Below, piece after piece: positions 2,336 to 4,498 of a DNA stretch of 34,420 nucleotides. The notes below the pieces were generated by a model. That model saw only the letters and a list, made by a program, of their open reading frames with translations, was not told where the DNA came from and searched no databases. The stretch is taken from positions 1 to 34,420 of the forward strand of contig CANHFG010000017.1 of the NCBI GenBank assembly GCA_947459875.1, given 5' to 3'. Every line of letters begins with the position of its first letter. The stretch's first letter is position 1. This DNA is from Ignavibacteria bacterium (GTDB lineage: Bacteria > Bacteroidota > Ignavibacteria > Kapaibacteriales > Kapaibacteriaceae). Both the position numbers and the translations under genes were made by a program.

Positions 2336-3103
2336 CTATTCTTCCATGGTCGAATTGCGTAGTTCTACGGGAGCAGCACTTTGACGCTGACGAAAACGCA
2401 TATTCAGGAACTCCACGCTGATGGAGAAGAGCATCGCCGTGTAGACGTAACCCTTTGGCACGTGAACACTTAGGCCTTCAAGCATGAGTACCAGGCCGAC
2501 CATCATCAGAAACGCCAGGGCCAGGATCTTCACCGTCGGATGCTGGTGAATGAAAGCCGATATCTTTCCTGCACTGAGCTGCATAACGATGACGGCGATG
2601 ATGACCGAGATGGCCATGACCATGAAATTCTGCGACAGTCCGATGGCCGTGATCACGGAATCGATCGAAAACACGATATCCAGAACGATGATCTGCACGA
2701 TCATGGTCGCAAATGCTGCCTTCGCCGCCTTGGAGGAGGCCTGTTCGGCACCCTCGAGCTTGCTGTGGATCTCGGTCGTTGCCTTGGCCAGCAGGAAGAG
2801 TCCCCCACTGAGCATGATCAGGTCGCGTCCACTCACGCCCCATGGCGCTTGCATGGCCAAGATCGGCGGAATGGTGAAGAGCGGAGCGGTCAGCTGAGCG
2901 ATCCAAACAGCACCCAGCAGAAACACCAGTCGCAGAATGAGTGCTAAAGACAGGCCGATGGTGCGTGCCTTCTGTTGCTGCGACGGGTCGAGTCGCCCAA
3001 CAAGAATGGATATAAAGATGATGTTGTCGATCCCGAGAACGATCTCAAGCACGGTAAGCGTGAGCAGCGAGACAAGGCTATCGGAGGTAAAGAGTGTTTC
3101 CAT
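2336..3103 (-). CDS. terC: TerC family integral membrane protein
   Basis: This 255-residue membrane protein begins METLFTSDSLVSLLTLTVLE and continues with the TerC signature EIVLGIDNIIFISILVGRL; a second matching motif, DIVFSIDSVITAIGL, lies in the middle. These paired acidic membrane motifs define the family, which includes tellurite-resistance TerC and the Mn2+ exporters Alx/MeeF/MeeY, the latter linked to metal supply for secreted enzymes. I count about seven hydrophobic segments. The frame is open far upstream, but METLF is the usual TerC start and the extension overlaps the divergent dehydrogenase. There is no Shine-Dalgarno sequence. A -7 box, TAGATTTG, ends five bases before the ATG, which predicts a leaderless or nearly leaderless mRNA. 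The transported ion cannot be read from the sequence. Confidence 0.92.
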   Translation of the reverse strand: METLFTSDSLVSLLTLTVLEIVLGIDNIIFISILVGRLDPSQQQKARTIGLSLALILRLVFLLGAVWIAQLTAPLFTIPPILAMQAPWGVSGRDLIMLSGGLFLLAKATTEIHSKLEGAEQASSKAAKAAFATMIVQIIVLDIVFSIDSVITAIGLSQNFMVMAISVIIAVIVMQLSAGKISAFIHQHPTVKILALAFLMMVGLVLMLEGLSVHVPKGYVYTAMLFSISVEFLNMRFRQRQSAAPVELRNSTMEE

Positions 3104-3108
3104 GGATG

Positions 3109-3116
3109 CAAATCTA
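3109..3116 (-). promoter_or_regulatory. -7 box of terC (overlaps the divergent box)
   Basis: TAGATTTG on the minus strand matches TAnnTTTG exactly. Its last base is five bases from the terC ATG at 3103. It shares the two bases 3115-3116 with the plus-strand box TAAATTTG. Confidence 0.6.
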
Positions 3117-3122
3117 AATTTG
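3115..3122 (+). promoter_or_regulatory. -7 box of the aldehyde dehydrogenase gene
   Basis: TAAATTTG matches TAnnTTTG exactly. Its last base is five bases from the ATG at 3128, the same distance as in the divergent terC promoter. A leaderless transcript is predicted. Confidence 0.6.
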
Positions 3123-3127
3123 TGGCT

Positions 3128-4498
3128 ATGAACTTCCGCAGTATCGACCCCACAACGGAACAGACCGTTGCTGAGTTCACGGCGCATACGGCCCTTGACG
3201 TTGGGCGCATGCTCAGTGCCGCATCTTCGGCTCAGGGACAATGGGCCCGTCGTCCTCTTCTTGAAAGGGTGCGCCTCATCGAAGGTCTTGCCGACGTGCT
3301 GGAGAAAAGGCGTCATGAGGGGGCGAGCACGATCACAAGGGAAATGGGAAAGCCCCTTGCCCAGGCACTGGCCGAGGTCGACAAATGCGCCGGCGCCGTA
3401 CGGTATATGGCGTCGATCGCCCCGACGGTGCTGGCCGATGAGACCGTGGATGCCGGTTTTCGACACAGCAGGGTGGTCTATGAGCCCCTAGGCCTGGTGC
3501 TCTCGATCATGCCATGGAATTTTCCGCTCTGGCAGTTCTTCCGGTTTGCCGCTCCGGCGCTTCTTGCCGGCAACGGTGTTCTGCTGAAGCACGCACCCAG
3601 TACTATGGGCTCGGGTCTCTTTGCGGAATCTGTCTGTCTTGAAGCTGGTCTGCCTGCGGGACTGGTGACTTCGCTTCTGATCGACGTACCGCAGGTTGAG
3701 AGCGTTATGGCCAACCCCGCCGTTGCCGCCGTGACGTTCACCGGGTCAACGGGTGGCGGAAGGGCTGTGGCGCAGGTTGCTGCCCGCCATATCAAGCCCG
3801 TGGTTCTGGAACTTGGCGGGAGCGACGCCTATATCGTGCTTGGCGATGCCGACCTCGATGTTGCCGTCAGCGCCTGTGTTGCCGGACGCCTTCTGAATGC
3901 CGGACAGTCCTGCATCGGTGCAAAGAGGTTCATCGTTCACACCTCGCTGCATGATGCATTCGTTTCCAGGGTTGCAGAGGCGTTTGACGCGGCCATCGTC
4001 GGATCTCCGCACAATCCTGACACTCAGGTCGGTCCTCTTGCGCGGCAAGATCTGCGCGATATCCTTCTGGATCAGGTTCGTCGCGCGCTCAACAGCGGTG
4101 CCCGCTGCGCCACGAAGCGGACTCTTGAAGATGTCCCGTCACGGGGCTGGTTTGTTCCGCCCATGTTGCTGGTGAACGTTCATCAAAACAATCCGGCCTT
4201 CCGGGAGGAACTGTTTGGTCCGGTGGCCAGCGTGACCTCCTTTGAAACGGAACACCAGGCCGTGGCCCTGGCCAACGACACGGAGTTTGGACTCGGCAAC
4301 GCCGTGTTCTCCCGTGACACGCCTGCCGCGCTTCGCATCGCCGCTCAGTTACAAAGCGGCACGGTGTTTATCAACGACTTCGTGCGCAGTCATGCGGCCC
4401 TGCCATTCGGCGGAGTGAAGTCGTCCGGTTACGGACGTGAACTTGGACGCTGGGGAATGCTGGAGTTCGTAAACGTAAAGAACATTACGATTGGCTGA
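3128..4498 (+). CDS. NAD(P)-dependent succinate-semialdehyde dehydrogenase-type aldehyde dehydrogenase
   Basis: This 456-residue aldehyde dehydrogenase is closest by motif to the Sad/YneI branch of succinate-semialdehyde dehydrogenases, which oxidise succinate semialdehyde to succinate. Signatures are IMPWNFPLWQ (Asn at 131, oxyanion), VLKHAPSTMG after it, FTGSTGGG in the Rossmann fold, LELGGSD (catalytic Glu228) and NAGQSCIGAKR (nucleophile Cys262), with PFGGVKSSGYGREL near the end. The length is normal for this branch. The ATG at 3128 begins MNFRSIDPTTEQ; the longer open frame upstream runs into the divergent terC gene. There is no Shine-Dalgarno sequence, and the -7 box is five bases upstream. 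The 3' end overlaps the convergent CNNM gene by 14 nt. Substrate is inferred from the family; no GABA or alpha-ketoglutarate decarboxylase gene is nearby. Confidence 0.9.
   Translation: MNFRSIDPTTEQTVAEFTAHTALDVGRMLSAASSAQGQWARRPLLERVRLIEGLADVLEKRRHEGASTITREMGKPLAQALAEVDKCAGAVRYMASIAPTVLADETVDAGFRHSRVVYEPLGLVLSIMPWNFPLWQFFRFAAPALLAGNGVLLKHAPSTMGSGLFAESVCLEAGLPAGLVTSLLIDVPQVESVMANPAVAAVTFTGSTGGGRAVAQVAARHIKPVVLELGGSDAYIVLGDADLDVAVSACVAGRLLNAGQSCIGAKRFIVHTSLHDAFVSRVAEAFDAAIVGSPHNPDTQVGPLARQDLRDILLDQVRRALNSGARCATKRTLEDVPSRGWFVPPMLLVNVHQNNPAFREELFGPVASVTSFETEHQAVALANDTEFGLGNAVFSRDTPAALRIAAQLQSGTVFINDFVRSHAALPFGGVKSSGYGRELGRWGMLEFVNVKNITIG

Follow-up and report, generated by a model that had tools for sequence, protein, structure and literature searches.

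The terC-family gene and the aldehyde dehydrogenase (ALDH) gene of this Ignavibacteria bacterium lie divergently on either side of an intergenic gap of only 24 bp, and the question raised by this locus is whether so short a gap could serve as the promoter of both genes. Among named organisms, the host is closest to Candidatus Kapaibacterium MAGs of the phylum Bacteroidota, with terC 85% and 69% identical. The following features were located in the window, the whole stretch of 34,420 nt that was analysed.

2336..3103, minus strand: terC-family membrane protein gene, 255 aa (Pfam TerC, 4e-45); TTTGCATCC-ATG upstream; predicted leaderless mRNA
3104..3127, no strand: entire intergenic gap, 23-24 bp long in 11 of 11 genomes of the genus
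3109..3116, minus strand: -7 box TAGATTTG on the terC side, exact TAnnTTTG, followed by CATCC and then ATG (5 nt)
3115..3116, no strand: TA common to both boxes, unchanged in all 11 congeners; predicted to form -12/-11 of each promoter
3115..3122, plus strand: -7 box TAAATTTG on the ALDH side, exact TAnnTTTG, followed by TGGCT and then ATG (5 nt)
3128..4498, plus strand: aldehyde dehydrogenase gene, 456 aa (Pfam Aldedh, 3e-132); TTTGTGGCT-ATG upstream; predicted leaderless mRNA

Two opposed -7 boxes in the terC/ALDH gap

Direct reading of the gap gave the sequence GGATGCAAATCTAAATTTGTGGCT, bounded by the ATG of terC at 3103-3101 on the minus strand and that of ALDH at 3128-3130 on the plus strand. 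Both start codons were taken as sound because homologues of the two proteins align from residue 1. The nearest NCBIfam model for the aldehyde dehydrogenase was NADP-dependent succinic semialdehyde dehydrogenase, with a score below the model cut-off. TerC relatives are often under riboswitch control, but Rfam gave no match in the window and a riboswitch or leader for terC was rejected. Reading of TTTGCATCC-ATG and TTTGTGGCT-ATG showed no Shine-Dalgarno sequence before either gene, while Shine-Dalgarno cores do precede some other genes of the host genome.

A preliminary description of this DNA had placed two exact TAnnTTTG boxes in the gap, with the TA in common and five bases to each ATG, and all of its coordinates proved correct. 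The -7 element of Bacteroidetes sigma-A promoters is thus present in exact form on both strands, with a pyrimidine directly after each box, and the key -7 positions of each box overlap those of the box on the other strand, as in prokaryotic bidirectional promoters. A TTTG element near -33 was looked for on both sides of the gap and was not found where it would be expected. The motif alone is not rare across the window (7 found versus 3.9 expected). When the gap's own letters were shuffled 200,000 times, either box alone fell 3-6 nt from its ATG at a frequency of 0.0036 and both boxes did so at 5e-6, or about one shuffle in the entire set. The exact 30-bp pattern CAT-N5-CAAANNTANNTTTG-N5-ATG occurs once in the host genome and once in each of four congeners, always at the terC/ALDH locus, and was absent elsewhere in the 99 related genomes searched.

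Leaderless geometry as a genome-wide class

The host sigma-A is a protein of 287 aa in which Pfam recognised only regions 1.2, 2, 3 and 4, with no match to region 1.1. Bacteroidetes sigma-A factors likewise lack region 1.1 and use TAnnTTTG as their -7 element (PMC6847099), and the host factor therefore fits the expectation for TAnnTTTG promoters. In flavobacteria this box spans -12 to -5 (PMC6847099, PMC9723704), so that a box 4-5 nt before a start codon would place +1 at the A of the ATG or one base before it.

This geometry was surveyed in 813 kb, roughly a third of the genome, made up of the window and 39 further stretches. TAnnTTTG occurred at 144 sites, 27 of which lie 3-6 nt before the ATG of an ORF of at least 100 aa with a mode of 4-5, whereas 29 letter-permuted motifs gave between 0 and 9 sites at this distance, though several of them were commoner overall. 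Exact boxes stood 3-7 nt before the start in 25 of the 590 genes sampled, and when one mismatch was allowed this rose to 54, compared with 12-24 genes at other spacings. Across the whole genome, TAnnTTTG-N5-ATG was found 25 times versus 6 for the reversed pattern, and TAnnTTTG-N(4-6)-ATG 71 times versus 16, which on our reading of the table is seemingly the highest ratio among 118 sampled members of the phylum. In the aligned set of leaderless-spaced sites a pyrimidine follows the box in 0.87 and G stands at -10 in 0.32, and no -33 signal was visible in 31 aligned leaderless sites. Many housekeeping genes carry the box 3-7 nt before their ATG (for example L174 2973, L163 17867, L158 19525 and L118 18261), and the genes behind the boxes include, by N-termini recognised by eye, what we take to be guaA, guaB, serS, accC, thyX, metH, murI, pth and truA.

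The sharp peak of TAnnTTTG 3-6 nt before ATGs indicates that leaderless geometry forms a genome-wide class in this host, which lends support to the earlier prediction of such geometry at the terC/ALDH gap. A smaller class of genes with Shine-Dalgarno cores coexists with the leaderless class. Elsewhere on contig C1, the stretch L118 3257-3296 carries a pair of exact TAnnTTTG boxes pointing towards one another (TAACTTTG, plus strand, at 3260; TAGTTTTG, minus strand, at 3281), so that the 5' ends of the transcripts predicted from them would overlap. It was also observed that CAAANNTANNTTTG-N(4-6)-ATG occurs 93 times versus 13 for the reversed control in 36 genomes of the host's own class and 126 versus 88 in 112 others of the phylum; this class-level enrichment possibly reflects further promoters with a shared TA, or A-rich sequence ahead of -7 boxes.

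Conservation within the genus

The divergent terC/ALDH pair is found in each of the 11 genus genomes, with a gap of 23 or 24 bp, the common TA and 4-5 nt between box and ATG on both sides; ALDH identity within this set goes down to about 54%. Both boxes are exact in five of these genomes, namely the host and the four congeners with the exact 30-bp pattern, and in the other six one box is exact and one is off by 1-2 bases. On the terC side the box is exact in 8 of 11 genomes and reads TACACTTG or TACACTCG in the remaining three; on the ALDH side it is likewise exact in 8, with TAAATTGT in two and TAATTTAG in one. The variant TAAATTGT fits the alternative motif TAnnTTGY (SM5) reported for F. psychrophilum (PMC9723704), by resemblance only. 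Loss of the boxes in close relatives that retain the gene pair, which had been named in advance as the outcome that would speak against the promoter, was not seen. The paired boxes with their common TA accordingly stood up with respect to the invariant TA and the gap length, while exactness on both sides was not universal.

Information content was also higher within the boxes, as the ten box-defining columns averaged 1.69 bits compared with 0.83 for the other 13 columns (NN and spacer), with a permutation p of 8e-5 that ignores the kinship of the genomes. Within the 14-mer the box/non-box split ranked 7th of 1001, again with kinship ignored, and wobble positions in the adjoining codons gave 0.57 and 0.87 bits. 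Outside the genus the terC/ALDH gaps measured 81, about 300 and 568 bp, or the ALDH gene had no terC beside it. The arrangement thus dissolves beyond the genus, and among the genomes sampled the compact form is confined to the genus.

A second tight divergent pair

Within the host genome, only the terC/ALDH locus combines boxes that share a TA with an ATG on both sides. The 813-kb sample contained one further tight divergent pair, encoding an M16 peptidase and an SDR protein.

L172 4005-4021, contig C29: 17-bp gap with palindrome TAAATTTA, between the M16 peptidase gene (minus strand, ATG 4004) and the SDR gene (plus strand, ATG 4022)

The palindrome is one mismatch from TAnnTTTG on each strand and lies 4-5 nt from each ATG. 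It was invariant in 10 of 10 genus genomes where the gap was readable, and two genomes from a different genus within the family carry the same 23-bp pattern. The two boxes coincide fully and the predicted start separation is 17 bp. Judged by its sequence, this gap is a candidate for a second doubly leaderless bidirectional promoter. As the terC/ALDH boxes overlap by the TA whereas those of the M16 peptidase/SDR pair coincide, the two conserved pairs represent two overlap registers.

Alternative readings of the gap

The terC/ALDH site is a near-perfect inverted repeat (CAAAT-CTAA-ATTTG), and it could be interpreted as the operator of a dimeric regulator acting over both genes, with the promoters elsewhere or partly coincident; shared operators are frequent among divergent genes. 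However, the palindrome recurs just once in the genome, in a one-sided copy before a thyX-like gene, so that no regulon is visible, and single TAnnTTTG boxes at equal spacing are common. In relatives, moreover, the symmetry becomes imperfect, yet one or both TAnnTTTG boxes remain exact. Because there are no other two-sided copies and it is the palindromy, not the box, that decays, we consider an operator improbable. The other genomic copy of CAAANNTANNTTTG (G000:C1 18255-18268) was rejected as a two-way promoter in its own right, being one-sided with no long ORF opposite. Among the matches listed, at least four two-sided ones in other Bacteroidota (G158, G178, G164 and G168) had no long ORFs on either side and were for this reason judged to be chance.

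Alternatively, only one promoter direction may be real; the opposite box would then be a side effect of the symmetry, with the other gene transcribed from a different site. The six congeners in which one box departs from consensus would agree with this, but the degraded side varies by lineage, with the terC box affected in three genomes and the ALDH box in another three, and every genome holds the spacing towards both ATGs, and a one-way promoter is quite unlikely in our estimation. A chance match was suggested by the AT-rich gap being short and by a motif with six fixed bases only, a point already raised in the preliminary description, which nevertheless thought chance the less likely explanation. 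The shuffling frequency and the retention of the site across all 11 genomes, where drift falls mostly on the non-box columns, bear out that judgement and make a coincidence extremely improbable.

A proposed two-way promoter

We conclude that the 24-bp gap is probably, and with considerable confidence, one bidirectional core promoter for the housekeeping sigma-A of this Kapaibacteria lineage that would give rise to two leaderless mRNAs, a reading drawn from sequence and its conservation. A presumed sigma-A holoenzyme would bind the site in either orientation, with the common TA supplying -12/-11 to both opposed -7 elements. Predicted starts would fall at 3127/3128 on the plus strand and 3104/3103 on the minus strand, at the A of each ATG or one base before, and the -12 to +1 geometry predicts a start separation of 23 bp, or up to 25 for starts on the A. 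Translation of terC and ALDH would then proceed in both cases from leaderless mRNAs that carry no Shine-Dalgarno sequence. Counting against a two-way promoter are the lack of a visible -33 element and the one imperfect box in 6 of 11 congeners. The -33 element was not taken as defining, since the corresponding TTTG element was likewise not identified in F. johnsoniae (PMC7366714). The terC box also has G at -10, which is disfavoured in F. johnsoniae (PMC6847099) yet common in this host.

As the TA is common to both -7 elements, the site would admit one polymerase at a time and mutual exclusion of polymerases at the gap is likely, in line with the finding that overlapping opposed -10 elements exclude simultaneous binding (PMC12825309). 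It is important to note that five E. coli bidirectional promoters were not active enough at their basal level for competition to matter, and that competition set in only once one side was activated (PMC12825309). This implies that competition between terC and ALDH would be relevant only if one direction were strongly active.

A more general interpretation is tentative and on balance doubtful, namely that divergent pairs of the genus have become fused through gaps of 17-24 bp that contain hardly anything beyond a symmetric sigma-A -7 site. As such gaps could not accommodate operators, leaders or ribosome sites, the ratio of the two leaderless mRNAs might be set only by box strengths and polymerase competition, and lineages might re-tune it by weakening either box, as the six asymmetric congeners could suggest.

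Relation to known promoters and significance

Bidirectional promoters are defined by divergent starts 7-25 bp apart (Warman et al.; PMC12825309, PMC10268837) and favour separations of 18, 10 and 23 bp (PMC12825309). The terC/ALDH site resembles these prokaryotic promoters (PMC12825309, PMC10268837) in its opposed, overlapping -10-type elements, which would admit one polymerase at a time, and in a predicted separation that lies within the defined range and, at 23 bp, in a common class. It differs from them in having TAnnTTTG in place of TATAAT, in that both mRNAs are predicted to be leaderless, and in that its starts are predicted from sequence. A literature search of papers available without subscription found no title describing a bidirectional promoter in Bacteroides or Bacteroidetes.

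With Bacteroidetes sigma-A promoters (PMC6847099, PMC9723704, PMC7366714) the site shares the box and a sigma-A without region 1.1, and like F. johnsoniae the host has no clear -33 signal. In contrast to the Bacteroidetes species studied, where very short or no leaders were found in only 3.7-5.5% of mapped mRNAs (PMC6847099, PMC9723704, PMC7366714), the host box peaks at leaderless spacing and commonly has G at -10. Leaderless bacterial genes have previously been surveyed with Pribnow-like boxes only, which placed such genes in 1 of 37 Bacteroidetes/Chlorobi genomes (PMC3160421). The host genes are like those surveyed in that the promoter box is placed for transcription to start at the start codon, but unlike them in that the box is TAnnTTTG and not Pribnow (PMC3160421).

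In summary, two-way promoters as such are already known, and the terC/ALDH locus is a well-supported prediction of a further, strongly conserved case. Such promoters have so far been characterised mainly on TATAAT-type -10 elements, and this gap would provide a conserved natural example on the Bacteroidota TAnnTTTG box with both products predicted to be leaderless. With the divergent regulatory region shrunk to about 14 bp, it would offer a clean test case for the choice of orientation by polymerase. The host also represents a Bacteroidota lineage with a clear class of leaderless genes, which may have escaped a survey based on Pribnow boxes.
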